Assembly: GCA_016223145.1 (NCBI GenBank)
Contig: JACRPN010000013.1
Location: 1 to 59,871, forward strand
Direction of reading: 5' to 3'
Source: Armatimonadota bacterium
GTDB lineage: Bacteria; Armatimonadota; Fimbriimonadia; Fimbriimonadales; Fimbriimonadaceae
Length of the DNA: 59,871 bases
How positions within the stretch are numbered: position 1 is the stretch's first letter; each line of letters starts with the position of its first letter. The position numbers were made by a program, and so were the translations under genes. This document shows, piece by piece, positions 13,729 through 56,455 of the stretch. The notes beneath the pieces were generated by a model. That model had not been told where the DNA came from. It ran no database searches and saw only the letters and a program-made list of their open reading frames with translations.

Positions 13729-16143
13729 CTATTCTGTCAACTTCATCAGCGCTTTGGAGAGCAGCGAAGCGCCCTTCGCTCCATCCTGGCTTTTGTACGC
13801 CAGCAACAGCCCCCAGGCGGACATCGCGCGGGCATAGTGCGAGCCACATTCGAATTCGTTGTAGGGATTCCTGCGCGAGCCGTCGTGACGTTTGCGGATG
13901 CCGCGCACGATCGCCAGCCCCTCGTCCATGAGTCCCTCATAGATCATGTGGCTCGCCACCTGGTACTCGATCCCGGTCCAGACTTCGTCCGAGTACACAA
14001 ATGGGAACGCGGGCCGCGAACCCCTCGGCCACGAACAGAGCAGAAGCCCTGGCTCATCCTGCACCGCGTAAATGCGCTGCATGTTCGCGTGTTCGCCGAG
14101 TCTTGACTTGAAGTTGTGCTTGAAGATCGCCTTCATGGTCTTCTTCACGACGGCTTTGTCGTAGAGGTAGCCAAGACCCGCCACGTGCGCCGCAAGCTGC
14201 CCAAACACCTGGTCGCTCAAGCACCCTTTGCCATGCTGATATTTGGGAGCGTCCTTCGCCAAGCAGTCGATGGTCTGCTCGAAGTACTCGCCGTTGAACA
14301 TCGCCTCGACGGCCTTCTTCGAGCCCTGATCGAACAGCTTGCGATAGGTGCTGGCCGAGGCCGTATCGCCCAAGTGCCTTGCGATCTCTTCCCCACTTCT
14401 CAACGCCGCCAAGTAGAAGCTCTGCGTCAATGGATTTGGGCCCTGGAAGTTGATGTCGTAGGTGTTGTGTTGGTCGCCTTCGACCAGGCCGTCCTTGTCC
14501 CTGTCCCACTGAACCCACGCGAACTCAAGCGCCCGCTTGGCATAGGGCCACATGTGCTTGAGATACGCGTCGTCGCCTGAGATCCTCCAATCCCGATAGA
14601 GCTGCACCACACCGCCAAGCTGTCCATCAGAGGCGGCATGCCACAAGCTCGGCGCCTCGTTGAAGGGCAAAGGAATCCGGAAAACGATCGCGCCCTTCTT
14701 GCCTTGCTCTCCCTTATCAAACGAGTGCTCGTACTCGCTCTTTCGCATGGAGCGGTGCAGATCGGGGAAGAGATAGGCCTGCGTGAGCGCATAGTTCCAC
14801 ACATGCGTACATGAGCCCGAACAGCACCCATCGGCAGGCGAGCAGCCCTCCCAAGCCCACATGGAACCGTCCTCGGTGAGCAGGACCGTGGGGGAGCGCA
14901 GGGTGCTTGCGGTCGCAGAGACCGACTCCAGGACCTCCGCCGGCAGCTTGCTCTTGAAGATCGCGTCCTCGAAGCTTCGTGTGGCCTTGTGAAGCTGCTT
15001 GCGTCTGGCGAAGAAGTCTTCGGCGGCGTCCCACGCCGTGGGCCAGCGCTTGGCGTAGGGGTTCACCCAGCGGTATTTCTTGTCGTCGGCCGTGCCGCCC
15101 GGATAGCCCCAATAGCGCTGGTTGTTTGGAAAGCACCAGGAGATGAGCACCGGCAGCTCGGCGGATTCGCCAGGCTTGAGGGTGACCTTGAGGCCGAGGC
15201 ATCCCGAAGTGGGGTCGCCGTCGCCACGGTCGTGTTTCTCTTCGAGCAGGCCGTCCGGCGAGAACATGTCCCAGAAATCGTGCAGGCTGTCGAACCAATC
15301 TCCCCGCAGCCAATGAGTGAGGTAGGTCACGTCCTGCCAGTCGGTCGTCAGCGCCATCGAGCCTTGTCGTGAGTGCTTTTCGCCGAACCGCCTGTTCGCA
15401 TACTGGATGCCCCGGCACGACTTTCCCTGGTGAAAGGCGTTGGAGGACTGCTCCTTCTGGCCTTGCGGCAAGGGGCTTCCCTGTGCGATGGCGTTATAGA
15501 GGTTGAAGGCAACCGTGGCGCGAAGGGTCCTGTTGCTTTTGTTTTTCAGCTTGTAGGTCAGGCAGGCAACGGGAAATTGCGAGTCGGCGGAGTTGCGCGG
15601 AATGAACGGGCTCCAGGCTTCCAACTCCACGTCCAGCGGCAGACCCTCTTTGTGGAATTGGAGCCGTGCAAAGGGAAACGTGCCCTTGAACACCACGTCA
15701 TCGAAGCACGGCAGTCCGTCCCCCTGCTGCCGAATCTGCCCATGCCCGTACCCCCAAAACTCCCTAGGATCGCCCACGAACTCCTTCATCCTGGGCCCCT
15801 GGATGACGAGACAGTGGGTTGCCCCCTCCTTGGTTTTCGCTCCCGCGGAAACTGCTTCCGAGTCCCGACTTGTCGGGAAGGAGGGGGTTGTCGAAGATCC
15901 CGCCGAGCGTAGCGAGGGGAACGAAGTCGGGAGGGGTGGAGACTCCTCTCCAACCCACAAAATCGGAAACGTCATCGGCAGAATCGTGCCCTTGTTCGGG
16001 CGGTTGTAGATCTCCCAGTCGCGCAGCGCTCCGCGCCCCTCCAAGCTGACGCAGCCTGTGCCTATCCCCCCTAACGGGAAGGCGACTTCGCGGAGGTTTT
16101 CTCCAAAGTAGGTGTAAGGAGCTTTGCGGTGACGTTGTGCCAT
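13729..16143 (-). CDS. GH116-family glycosidase (GBA2-like glucosylceramidase/beta-glucosidase)
   Basis: Glycoside hydrolase of 804 residues with the GH116 N-terminal beta domain (FPLGGIGTGCVSLEGRG, NRPNKGTILPMTF) and the C-terminal alpha-barrel (GCCSGSCTHVWNYALTQAYLF; LGGVVQLYRDWRISGDDAYL). The Asp in HNTYDINFQGPN aligns by motif with the GH116 acid/base. The nucleophile Glu normally lies shortly before the THVWNY-like stretch; WEGCSP is the nearest candidate here. There is no signal peptide, so it is probably cytoplasmic. Residues about 66-108 are Ser/Pro-rich and coincide with an R1 repeat inserted in frame. It may digest oligosaccharides imported by the nearby ABC system. Confidence 0.92.
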   Translation of the reverse strand: MAQRHRKAPYTYFGENLREVAFPLGGIGTGCVSLEGRGALRDWEIYNRPNKGTILPMTFPILWVGEESPPLPTSFPSLRSAGSSTTPSFPTSRDSEAVSAGAKTKEGATHCLVIQGPRMKEFVGDPREFWGYGHGQIRQQGDGLPCFDDVVFKGTFPFARLQFHKEGLPLDVELEAWSPFIPRNSADSQFPVACLTYKLKNKSNRTLRATVAFNLYNAIAQGSPLPQGQKEQSSNAFHQGKSCRGIQYANRRFGEKHSRQGSMALTTDWQDVTYLTHWLRGDWFDSLHDFWDMFSPDGLLEEKHDRGDGDPTSGCLGLKVTLKPGESAELPVLISWCFPNNQRYWGYPGGTADDKKYRWVNPYAKRWPTAWDAAEDFFARRKQLHKATRSFEDAIFKSKLPAEVLESVSATASTLRSPTVLLTEDGSMWAWEGCSPADGCCSGSCTHVWNYALTQAYLFPDLHRSMRKSEYEHSFDKGEQGKKGAIVFRIPLPFNEAPSLWHAASDGQLGGVVQLYRDWRISGDDAYLKHMWPYAKRALEFAWVQWDRDKDGLVEGDQHNTYDINFQGPNPLTQSFYLAALRSGEEIARHLGDTASASTYRKLFDQGSKKAVEAMFNGEYFEQTIDCLAKDAPKYQHGKGCLSDQVFGQLAAHVAGLGYLYDKAVVKKTMKAIFKHNFKSRLGEHANMQRIYAVQDEPGLLLCSWPRGSRPAFPFVYSDEVWTGIEYQVASHMIYEGLMDEGLAIVRGIRKRHDGSRRNPYNEFECGSHYARAMSAWGLLLAYKSQDGAKGASLLSKALMKLTE
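15821..15946 (+). repeat. R1 palindromic repeat, copy inside the GH116 gene
   Basis: Begins GCCCCCTCCTTGGTTTTCGC and ends GGGGTGGAGACTCC like the intergenic R1 copies at 17542 and 55200, with extra internal stems (TCCCGACTTGTCGGGA). It is 126 bases, a multiple of three, and lies antisense in GH116 codons about 66-108. The encoded stretch (EESPPLPTSFPSLRS... SFPTSRDSE) is low-complexity and sits between two conserved GH116 segments. Confidence 0.65.
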
Positions 16144-17541: not shown

Positions 17542-17597
17542 GCCCCCTCCTCGTTTTGGTTCGTAAATGAGGAGGGGGTTGGGGGTGGAGACACTCC
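17542..17597 (+). repeat. R1 palindromic repeat, intergenic copy
   Basis: Perfect 10-bp stem CCCCCTCCTC / GAGGAGGGGG with a 16-base loop, followed by TTGGGGGTGGAGACACTCC. Sits between two converging genes where it could also serve as a two-way terminator. Same family as 15821, 55200 and (inverted) 56282. Confidence 0.65.
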
Positions 17598-20491: not shown

Positions 20492-20533
20492 CGATTCACC
20501 CGCACGCCATTCTGCCCTTCCTTCGCCATGGCC

Positions 20534-20587
20534 CCCTCACCCCCGTTCACTTCGTTCACGGACCCTCTCCCGCGAGGGGCGAGGGAG
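20534..20587 (-). repeat. R2 GC-rich repeat, intergenic copy
   Basis: On the minus strand it reads CTCGCCCCTCGCGGGAGAGG, a spacer, then GAACGAAGTGAACGGGGGTGAGGG. Same architecture as the R2 copies at 47440, 48337 and 56346. Lies within the sugar-ABC operon between binding protein and permease. Confidence 0.6.
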
Positions 20588-20595
20588 CCCTCACG

Positions 20596-47187: not shown

Positions 47188-47363
47188 GGCATCCCATTAT
47201 CGCCGTCAGTGACTGGCCGCCATCCGGCCCAAATGGCCCTGGCGGGCCCTTCGGGAACCGACACGAAGTAGAACGGCGCCGGTCCGCGCCATTACCAGAC
47301 GTCACTGGAAAACTCTAGAGTCAGGCGGAGAAAGAATAGCATTCTCAACCTGAGATGCGGATT

Positions 47364-47426
47364 GAGGTTCGAGGTGCAGGGTGTGGGGTGCTGGGTGTGA
47401 GGTGTGAGGTGTGAGGTATGGGGTGT
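47364..47426 (+). repeat. Period-7 short tandem array (GAGGTGT)
   Basis: Nine heptamers without interruption: gaggttc, gaggtgc, agggtgt, ggggtgc, tgggtgt, gaggtgt, gaggtgt, gaggtat, ggggtgt. It lies in the 367-base gap 47188-47554, which otherwise holds only the R2 repeat at 47440; no gene is visible there. Confidence 0.7.
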
Positions 47427-47439
47427 GGGGCCAGAATTC

Positions 47440-47512
47440 ACCTCGCCCCAGGGGGAGAGGTCGGTGCCTGCCCCGGTTCCATCGGGGAACGCAGTGAACC
47501 GGGTGAGGGGGA
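47440..47512 (+). repeat. R2 GC-rich repeat, intergenic copy with internal stem
   Basis: CACCTCGCCCC, GGGAGAGG, CGGTG, then an inserted hairpin CCCCGGTTCCATCGGGGAAC, then GTGAACCGGGTGAGGG. Same ends as the other R2 copies. Located 43 bases beyond the stop of the FG-GAP gene. Confidence 0.65.
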
Positions 47513-47554: not shown

Positions 47555-48841
47555 TTAACTCCTCTGCAGAAACACAAAGACGCCGTTCTTGTTGGAGATC
47601 ACGATGTCCGCGAGGCCGTCCCGGTTCATGTCTTGAACCACGAACTGCGTACCCACCCCCGAGTCCTCATCGATCACATGCCGTACCCATTCGACCTTGC
47701 CTTTGGACCGGACGAGTTCATAGCGAACGAGCCACGACGGCTCTTCCGAGCCCACGTCCACCCCGGGAGGATGCGCCCATTTGCGCTTTCCAGTGATCAG
47801 ATTCACTACCCTGGAGCGACCCAACGGAGCTAGGATCGCCGCATGGGTCTCCGAAACGGTCTCGTCGATCGTGTGGCGCTCGAATCTCCCGTCGGGCTTC
47901 TGTTCCGCCCACCACACGCCGCGCGCGTGGGCGGAGCTGGCGAGAAGGTCCACGCGTCCGTCCGCGTTCACGTCGAACGCGGGGATGTGGGCGCAGTCTG
48001 CGAAGATCACCGCACTCTGAAAGCTCCACGGGGCGGCCTTTGGGTCCTTGGGTTGAAGGTAGGCGCCGTCCTTGGTCAGTACATCCAGTCTCCCGTCGCC
48101 ATTGATGTCCCCCACACCCAGGCCATGCGCATACCGCTGCGAACCTGCGCCCTTGGGACCGCTGATCGGGTGGCAGGTCCATGGCTTATCCGAATCCGCA
48201 GAGGGCTCGAACCAAGCCAGATAGTTGTCGTCGGTGCCCATGACGAGGACCCGCTTGCCACTCTTGAAAAGGTCGATATAGAGCGGGCTCTCGTTGCAGG
48301 CGCTACGCCAGATGAGGTGCTCTTTCCATGACACTTCACCTCGCCCCATGAGGGAGAGGCCGGTGAGCTCCGGCGAACCGGGTGAGGGTTGCGTCTGAAC
48401 CTTAACCAGGCTCGTATCCTGCAACATGTTGCGCCCGGCTCCTGGATTCTCCCGCCAGATGGCCTGCTCTCCCGGCATCCCAATGACGATCTGGTCGATC
48501 CAGCCGTCGTGGTTCACGTCTTCGGCCCAGCAATGAAAGCAGTTGCTGTATTGGGTCTTGGGTTCCAGCTTGGGGACCGGAGCTATCTCGTGCGGCGTCC
48601 AAGGGTCAGAGAGCTTTCGGGGCGCTTCGTACCACACGTTCCCCGCCATCACGTCGAGCCTTCCATCGCGGTTGACGTCGGCGACGGCGACACCCTCCGA
48701 AACGAATCGCTGATCGAGAATGACCCGAGAGAAGCTAACGGCCTCGTCATGGATTGGGTGCATGCCCCGCTGGGCTCCAGGCAAAGATGCCAAGAGCGCC
48801 GCGAAAAGAGGGATTCGGAAGATCAAGGGTCCTGAAATCAT
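47555..48841 (-). CDS. Secreted FG-GAP/VCBS repeat protein
   Basis: 428 residues, signal peptide (FRIPLFAALLASLPGAQ) then a beta-propeller of FG-GAP/VCBS type. At least five calcium-loop motifs are present: DVNRDGRLD, DVNHDGWID, DINGDGRLD, DVNADGRVD, DMNRDGLAD. Such propellers are secreted binding domains. ATG 48841 is preferred to the longer frame to 48976. Residues about 151-168 (PSPGSPELTGLSLMGRGEV) come from an R2 repeat inserted in frame. Last strand KNGVFVFLQRS closes the propeller. Confidence 0.88.
   Translation of the reverse strand: MISGPLIFRIPLFAALLASLPGAQRGMHPIHDEAVSFSRVILDQRFVSEGVAVADVNRDGRLDVMAGNVWYEAPRKLSDPWTPHEIAPVPKLEPKTQYSNCFHCWAEDVNHDGWIDQIVIGMPGEQAIWRENPGAGRNMLQDTSLVKVQTQPSPGSPELTGLSLMGRGEVSWKEHLIWRSACNESPLYIDLFKSGKRVLVMGTDDNYLAWFEPSADSDKPWTCHPISGPKGAGSQRYAHGLGVGDINGDGRLDVLTKDGAYLQPKDPKAAPWSFQSAVIFADCAHIPAFDVNADGRVDLLASSAHARGVWWAEQKPDGRFERHTIDETVSETHAAILAPLGRSRVVNLITGKRKWAHPPGVDVGSEEPSWLVRYELVRSKGKVEWVRHVIDEDSGVGTQFVVQDMNRDGLADIVISNKNGVFVFLQRS
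48337..48388 (+). repeat. R2 repeat inside the FG-GAP gene
   Basis: CACCTCGCCCCATGAGGGAG opens a 52-base copy ending CGAACCGGGTGAGGG, matching the intergenic copies at 47440 and 56346. Within the gene (antisense) it supplies codons 151-168 without stop or frameshift. Confidence 0.7.
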
Positions 48842-55189: not shown

Positions 55190-55199
55190 GAAGGAACTA

Positions 55200-55259
55200 G
55201 CCCCTCCCTTGTTTTACGCTTAGGCGGAAAATGAGGGAGGGGTTGGGGAGGGAGACTCC
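55200..55259 (+). repeat. R1 palindromic repeat, intergenic copy
   Basis: CCCCTCCCT and AGGGAGGGG form the stem (loop includes TGTTTTACGC and GCGGAAAATG), followed by TTGGGGAGGGAGACTCC. It begins ten bases after the M14 stop and may act as its terminator. Confidence 0.65.
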
Positions 55260-55327
55260 GGGAGATTGGGGGGTGGCGGACTTACTGGCACCACGCACCG
55301 CCGAAGCAGTACGCTCCACAGAACGCA

Positions 55328-55761: not shown

Positions 55762-56193
55762 ATGAAGATCGCGATTGCCTCCGACCACGCCGGTTTCCTC
55801 TACAAGGAACAGATCAAGCGCCACCTGATCCAGGAGGGCCACGACGTGCGCGACTTTGGGACGGACTCACCGGAATCGTGTGACTACCCGGTCTTTGTCC
55901 GTCCCGCTGCGGAAGCTGTCGCGAAGGGCGAATGTGAGCGGGGAATTGTGCTCGGGGGCTCGGGAAACGGCGAGGCCATGGTCTCGAACCGTGTGGCGGG
56001 CGTCCGTGCGGCGGTGTGTTGGAATCGGGAATCGGCGATCCTCGGCAGACGCCACAACGACGCCAACGTGCTGTCCCTGGGCGAGCGCATGATGGACTGG
56101 GACACTTGCCTTGAGATCGTGGCCCTATTCCTTACTGAGCCATTCGATGGCGGGCGCCACGAAAGGCGCGTGCGGTTGATCGATGGAGAGTAA
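55762..56193 (+). CDS. rpiB: Ribose-5-phosphate isomerase B, Glu-base type
   Basis: RpiB/LacAB isomerase of 143 residues interconverting ribose-5-P and ribulose-5-P. Family motifs: MKIAIASDHAGF, GTDSPESCDYP, and GRRHNDANVLSLGERM. The loop reads GGSGNGE, with Glu71 where E. coli RpiB has a catalytic Cys elsewhere in GTGIG; this is the Mycobacterium-type active site using Glu as base (family knowledge). I start at ATG 55762; the longer frame to 55579 overlaps DUF423. Normal length, apparently intact. Confidence 0.95.
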   Translation: MKIAIASDHAGFLYKEQIKRHLIQEGHDVRDFGTDSPESCDYPVFVRPAAEAVAKGECERGIVLGGSGNGEAMVSNRVAGVRAAVCWNRESAILGRRHNDANVLSLGERMMDWDTCLEIVALFLTEPFDGGRHERRVRLIDGE

Positions 56194-56199
56194 GGGTTA

Positions 56200-56227
56200 G
56201 CGGTTTGCGGTTTGCGGTTTGCGGTTT
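56200..56227 (+). repeat. Period-7 tandem array GCGGTTT x4
   Basis: Four perfect GCGGTTT units starting seven bases after the rpiB stop. First of four repeat types packed in the 262-base gap before the VPS10-like gene. Confidence 0.8.
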
Positions 56228-56242
56228 GAGATGAAAGCCAAC

Positions 56243-56274
56243 CGTCCCTACGTCCCTTCGTCCCTCTGTCCCTA
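56243..56274 (+). repeat. Period-8 tandem array CGTCCCTN x4
   Basis: cgtcccta, cgtccctt, cgtccctc, tgtcccta. Last base of each unit varies. Same core as 48915. Confidence 0.75.
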
Positions 56275-56281
56275 CTTGTTC

Positions 56282-56339: not shown

Positions 56340-56345
56340 TGTCCG

Positions 56346-56395
56346 CCTCGCCCCTTGTGGGAGAGGCCGTTGAGCGAAGCGAACCGGGTGAGGGG
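56346..56395 (+). repeat. R2 GC-rich repeat, intergenic copy
   Basis: CCTCGCCCCTTGTGGGAGAG, then GCCGTTGAGCGAAGCGAACC, then GGGTGAGGGG. The best-preserved R2 copy in the window. It lies 61 bases before the VPS10-like start codon. Confidence 0.7.
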
Positions 56396-56455
56396 GGACC
56401 CCTCTTTAGTACCGTGTAGGAAGGAAACTCCTGAAAGCGTGTCGTATCCATCGCC

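Follow-up and report, generated by a model that had tools for sequence, protein, structure and literature searches.

A repeat of putative triplex class as a probable tolerated in-frame insertion in an FG-GAP protein gene of an Armatimonadota bacterium

Introduction

Repeats of the TM type are numerous in many bacteria, and we know of no function or means of spread for them. The intrastrand triplex motif TM-ECO, earlier named the PIT motif (Holder et al. 2015, PMC4666352), was found in E. coli MG1655 to be always intergenic and without a link to mobile elements (PMC4666352). Rickettsia palindromic elements (RPEs; Ogata et al. 2000/2002), as outlined in a review (PMC10969869), are dispersed repeats that lie in frame in unrelated genes and encode a conserved peptide. 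The GTAG and CGTC types of REPs, which are small and palindromic, also occur within ORFs, tRNA synthetase genes included, sometimes as dimers or clusters (PMC3733652), and two Xanthomonas species carry different REPs at about the same recB site (PMC3733652).

Here we analyze a window of 59,871 nucleotides (assembly GCA_016223145.1, contig JACRPN010000013.1, positions 1 to 59,871) and in it a copy of an interspersed repeat of about 52 nt, termed R2, which lies inside the gene of an FG-GAP repeat protein. We regard this copy as very probably a tolerated in-frame insertion of a triplex-class repeat, a judgement that does not extend to its mode of spread.

The R2 copy in the FG-GAP gene

The reading frame of the FG-GAP gene is free of stops across the R2 segment, the sequence of which is CACCTCGCCCCATGAGGGAGAGGCCGGTGAGCTCCGGCGAACCGGGTGAGGG. 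The features of the locus are:

47555 to 48841, minus strand: FG-GAP/VCBS propeller protein gene; the start at ATG 48841 is inferred, and the longest ORF begins at TTG 48976.
48337 to 48388, plus strand: R2 copy within the FG-GAP gene; the covariance-model match spans 48335-48391, and the minus-strand reading gives PSPGSPELTGLSLMGRG.
48339 to 48359, plus strand: first hairpin, with the C-rich stem CCTCGCCC (48339-48346), a loop and the G-rich stem GGGAGAGG (48352-48359).
48360 to 48381, plus strand: second hairpin, CCGGT-GA-GC(TCCG)GC-GA-ACCGG, a structured second loop absent in TM-ECO.
48380 to 48388, plus strand: third block, GGGTGAGGG, by consensus and sequence a candidate third strand of an intrastrand triplex.
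48389 to 48433, minus strand: 15 more inserted codons, RNMLQDTSLVKVQTQ, missing in orthologues.

The original prediction had taken the 52-base segment for an R2 copy, and on this the hairpin pattern, the terminal 14-mer and the genome-wide copies all agree. It had also placed R2 at codons 151-168 without a stop; the open frame was confirmed, but counted from ATG 48841 the codons are 152-169. The proposal that a propeller blade is interrupted or a loop extended can be narrowed down to the latter, as a loop between two blade strands is lengthened and no blade is replaced.

At this loop the protein of the window is about 32 residues longer (GAG-RNMLQDTSLVKVQTQ-PSPGSPELTGLSLMGRGEV-S). The second half of the extra sequence is R2, and the 15 of the 32 codons that precede it are filler. 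The 27-nt core of the filler is single-copy in the genome even if up to 3 mismatches are counted, and the idea that these codons are another genomic repeat was rejected on this ground. Since the insert has twice the length of R2, filler must have been added unless the loop was already expanded when R2 arrived there. A structure model based on an alignment of two sequences has a mean pLDDT of 55.5. Its longest internal stretch with pLDDT below 50 is the insert, which lies between strands 126-131 and 173-179; this poor model weakly suggests that the loop is disordered.

To judge the loop in relatives, homologues of the FG-GAP protein were drawn from related genomes, that is from other species at genus level or further. 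In full-length homologues without a repeat insert the inter-strand loop WRENP-WKEH nearly always has the form NP-x5-W, and the R2 peptide is missing from a planctomycete homologue (L104) as well. This constant short loop without the R2 peptide shows that R2 in the FG-GAP gene is a real insertion. Conservation of the segment at the protein level in distant orthologues, the finding that the original prediction had named as speaking against it, was not observed: full-length orthologues from other genera and families lack the segment.

Two genomes, each from another genus of the family, carry an insert in the same loop, namely PHPPAPSPRTNAPGRGGE in G013 and PHPPAPSPPEGRGGE in G035. The DNA of both belongs to the same motif class as R2, with a differing second loop (CCTCGCCCCTCTGGGGGAGAGGGGGCTGGGGGGTGAGGGG in G035), and all three inserts have the same orientation relative to the gene. 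The shared loop, orientation and motif class could point to one ancestral insertion, which sister lineages later lost and which gene conversion replaced with each genome's own type of repeat. In the tree calculated with the inserts removed, however, the three insert-bearing proteins do not group: G013 pairs with the insert-free G040 (100/99) and G035 with the insert-free G052 (96/80), while the backbone branches are unresolved. Moreover, at the CCTCACC end of the motif the reading frame in the genome under study is not that of G013 and G035. We consider a single ancestor, unsupported by this tree, to be improbable. The simplest reading is that three genera apparently acquired their inserts in this loop independently.

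Copies and structure of R2

The hairpin pattern CCTCGCCCC-N2-9-GGAGAGG occurs in the window at 20564 on the minus strand and at 47441, 48339 and 56346 on the plus strand, with 0.01 occurrences expected, and the last 14 bases of the segment, GAACCGGGTGAGGG, are found exactly at 47496, 48375 and 56381. The other copies predicted at 20534, 47440 and 56346 do exist, the one at 20534 on the minus strand and of a diverged subtype:

47437 to 47512, plus strand: R2 copy downstream of the FG-GAP gene, a long form with an additional internal segment.
56342 to 56397, plus strand: R2 copy, apparently intergenic.
20531 to 20588, minus strand: R2 copy of the diverged subtype TCCGTGAACGAAGTGAACGGGGG.

A genome-wide BLASTN search with the segment, proposed along with the prediction, matches 42 places. 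The 14-mer has 81 exact copies and 46 with one mismatch in the genome (reversed control: 7). With a covariance model made from 35 copies, at least 150 full-length R2 copies are found in 3.87 Mb. The consensus is CCACCTCGCCCC-N4-GGGAGAGGTCGGTGARCGNAGYGAACCGGGTGAGGGG, beyond the ends of which the information content falls near background. As single-stranded DNA R2 folds into two hairpins of modest folding energy (z about -1.7 to -1.8). In the alignment 97.4% of the cells are paired, and the nine double-sided changes all concern one pair (columns 35-42), the inner R-Y pair of hairpin 2, which covaries between GC in 22 and AU in 9 of the 35 copies. Rfam gave no match above the gathering score in the window, by which a known RNA family was ruled out for R2.

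Low-complexity runs (GGTGTGAGG..., GCGGTTT..., GTCCCTTCGTCCCT) often adjoin R2 copies, in the window at 47350-47435 and 56190-56275.

R2 in frame in other genes

The flanks of all R2 copies were scored by a simple codon model, for which 24 long ORFs from the window served as training set. The majority fall between genes. In fourteen cases the copy sits in an open frame and both of its flanks look coding; a tandem array in a fifteenth ORF is not counted among them, and one further candidate was excluded as probably non-coding. The fourteen hosts encode:

UbiE/MenG, MazG, AlaRS, XerD, a DUF5107 protein, an M28 peptidase and a family-2 glycosyltransferase (GT2);
the FG-GAP protein, AccC, an MBL-rhodanese, an S9 peptidase, a GH2 enzyme (assigned by eye), Era and a solute-binding protein.

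A stricter flank scan retained 10 copies in frame, and 2 had coding flanks on the same strand in differing frames. Alignments to solved structures gap or break at the insert for AlaRS, MBL-rhodanese, XerD, Era, AccC and MazG. The match of UbiE in the relatives is interrupted around residues 84-107, where the insert lies (e.g. 1-83 and 108-267), and that of AlaRS around residues 202-236, which the loop residues confirm. Taken together, the insert is missing from homologues in eight host genes (FG-GAP, AlaRS, MBL-rhodanese, XerD, Era, AccC, UbiE and MazG). As PF01411 identifies a single AlaRS in the genome, with an open frame of 999 aa, an essential gene carries the insert. Judged from the open frames and conserved flanks, the R2-bearing genes probably make working proteins.

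More than one repeat is found in a single loop in AlaRS, Era, AccC and GT2. The AlaRS loop (L257, G000:C11:135147 onward) combines R2 with an adjoining repeat similar to CCTCCTC/GAGGAGG, both in frame; the segment beside R2, CCCCCTCCTCCTCTCGCTCCGCTCCAAGAGGAGGGGG, looks like another repeat. The loops of Era and AccC hold R2 together with other repeats. At G000:C14:1885-2159 an ORF of RNase-H-like appearance carries at its start four R2 copies in frame, arranged almost perfectly in tandem. The GH2-like ORF (G000:C1:69262 region) shows several tandem copies of a different repeat peptide, KGFAPVAAGLQPASGSSVAAGSVPAS.

The second repeat family that had been predicted in a second gene is present in the window as well:

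15848 to 15943, minus strand: R1-type repeat, in frame in the large ORF 13729-16143.

This family, CCTCCTC...GAGGAGGGGGTTGGGGGTGGAGAC, has several matches elsewhere in the genome, and the peptide at 15848-15943 is PPLPTSFPSLRSAGSSTTPSFPTSRDSEAVSAG. R1-type repeats were also noted at 17546-17592 and 55198-55261.

The pattern CCTCNCCC-N2-9-GGGAGAGG-N8-38-GGTGAGG occurs in 51 of 151 related genomes, and its reversed control in none. Among 29 copies inspected in G055, G012 and G035, two lie in frame in ORFs, both in G012 and one of them in CysRS on a contig of 2.65 Mb. The general process suggested by the original prediction is thus borne out by the 14 copies and the array in frame, by the homologue comparison in seven further hosts and by CysRS in a related genus.

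Two contigs of the draft end exactly within R2 copies (C4 at 236507, C22 at 151777), and R2 therefore breaks assemblies. These ends could be taken as a hint that an assembly or binning artefact joined repeats into genes. Against this, many inserts are internal to contigs and keep the frame in conserved enzymes, and the same phenomenon occurs in other genomes: the inserts in CysRS of G012, on its long contig, and in the FG-GAP genes of G013 and G035 argue that it is not the artefact of one assembly. An artefact is extremely improbable.

Choice of reading frame

All eight R2 copies that run in the direction of the gene share one frame, TSPLxGEVGERSEPGEG, with two frames open per copy, and all six that run against it likewise share one frame, PSPGS...SPxxGEV, with three open per copy. 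The product of the per-copy probabilities for this uniform choice in 14 of 14 copies is 10^-5.3, or about 3e-5 if the favoured frame may be freely chosen per orientation (x6). The favoured peptides are rich in Pro, Ser, Gly and Glu and have no bulky hydrophobic residues.

This uniformity might also be expected if the R2 peptides were useful as a flexible linker or loop under positive selection. The recurrent inserts in the FG-GAP loop of three genera and the stacking of repeats in one loop (AlaRS, Era, AccC, GT2) point in the same direction. The host proteins are functionally unrelated, though, and close relatives manage without the insert; the favoured frame is the one with the fewest bulky or basic residues, for which tolerance alone suffices. 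Domestication therefore appears quite unlikely to us, and selection for tolerance is the likely cause of the frame choice.

With tolerance as the preferred explanation, the course of events could be described as follows. R2 is a short interspersed repeat made of a C-rich stem, a G-rich stem and a second G-rich stem, with a hairpin as second loop, and fresh copies of it would arrive throughout the genome. Copies inside genes would be purged unless they keep the frame and hit a surface loop. The survivors would be those with one frame per orientation, encoding a Pro/Ser/Gly/Glu-rich peptide that is probably disordered and may be neutral.

Spread of R2

As to how R2 copies spread, we infer a copying of structured single-stranded DNA coupled to replication or repair, with no dedicated transposase, and favour this tentatively. 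It is possible, though short of probable, that a Y1 (HUH) REP-associated tyrosine transposase moves R2 in trans via its single-stranded hairpins, and that the intragenic copies represent ordinary transposition. The genome contains 12 Y1_Tnp matches, and R2 has two such hairpins with covariation in the second. A target-site duplication, as in MITEs, was ruled out at R2, as the identity of the flanks is no higher than in shuffled pairings; the Y1 transposase group is expected to leave none. Genomes with at least 10 copies more often contain Y1_Tnp (16 of 18, compared to 63 of 100), but the correlation is weak (Spearman 0.21) and uncorrected for relatedness. At the eight of the 12 Y1 loci that were inspected, however, no R2 copy lies within about 1.5 kb of the gene, where one partial degenerate hairpin was all that was seen. 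Furthermore, G055 with 62 copies and G014 with 10 have no Y1_Tnp match, and the ends of R2 carry no tag (GTAG was found in 3 of 148 copies at either end region, CGTC in 7 copies at the 5' end region and in 2 at the 3' end region). Y1/RAYT was rejected as an evident mobiliser of R2, since none of the eight inspected loci is flanked by copies and a genome with no Y1_Tnp match holds many of them. A third route, neither repair-coupled copying nor a Y1 transposase, is not very likely.

Fixed in-frame copies together with empty orthologues represent insertion events with well-bounded ends, which are rare for intergenic copies. The mechanism of spread and the cost of an insert of about 17 residues in an essential enzyme therefore become testable. 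In a wider and rather doubtful reading, triplex-motif repeats might actively supply new coding loops across the family, spreading without a transposase and invading the same loops again and again in proteins that are unrelated and essential. With R2, 'selfish DNA in proteins' of the Rickettsia type is extended to another repeat class and lineage. As a matter of caution, loop insertions in R2-bearing proteins should not be taken as functional domains.

Comparison with known repeat systems

By sequence, R2 is best described as a variant, and not a member, of the TM-ECO intrastrand-triplex motif (CCTCKCCC-loop-GGGAGAGG-loop2-GGGTGAGGG), the triplex being putative. Three blocks corresponding to those of TM-ECO (CCCTCNCCC, GGGNGAGGG, GGGNGAGGG) follow in the same order, and are present as CCTCGCCCC, GGGAGAGG and GGGTGAGGG in most of 148 R2 copies. 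The match is incomplete, as block one opens with A where TM-ECO has C and block two ends in T/C, leaving agreement at 8 of 9 positions in each of these two. Both repeats have a first hairpin with a G/A mismatch of the 'mm' type (CTCGCCCC), both are interspersed without an identified mobile element, and the first loop of 3-6 nt in TM-ECO is mostly 4-5 nt in R2. The decisive difference is the second loop, which has 3 nt in TM-ECO and about 18 nt with a hairpin in R2, and because of it we speak of a variant. R2 also starts with CACCTCGCCCC, unlike TM-ECO. Close pairs are inverted for TM-ECO in E. coli, whereas R2 pairs less than 200 nt apart are direct (head-to-tail) in 22 of 23 cases. Finally, TM-ECO was reported to be strictly intergenic in E. 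coli MG1655, whereas many R2 copies lie in frame within genes.

In its behaviour R2 is comparable to the RPEs as the review presents them, being a dispersed repeat in frame in several unrelated protein genes (14 copies and the array) with one preferred frame of the encoded peptide. This likeness is one of behaviour, and membership in the same sequence family is not claimed. RPEs, according to the same review, have about 150 bp or are REP-like and belong to an obligate intracellular alphaproteobacterium, and the review describes no triplex-type blocks for them (PMC10969869). With the GTAG/CGTC REPs R2 shares that small repeats occur inside ORFs, including tRNA synthetase genes, and sometimes several together; these REPs, however, have a GTAG or CGTC end tag, the GTAG type being associated with RAYT genes, and R2 is without such a tag. 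In-frame intragenic repeats are hence known already from RPEs and GTAG/CGTC REPs, and what is new is a repeat class of putative triplex type that does the same.
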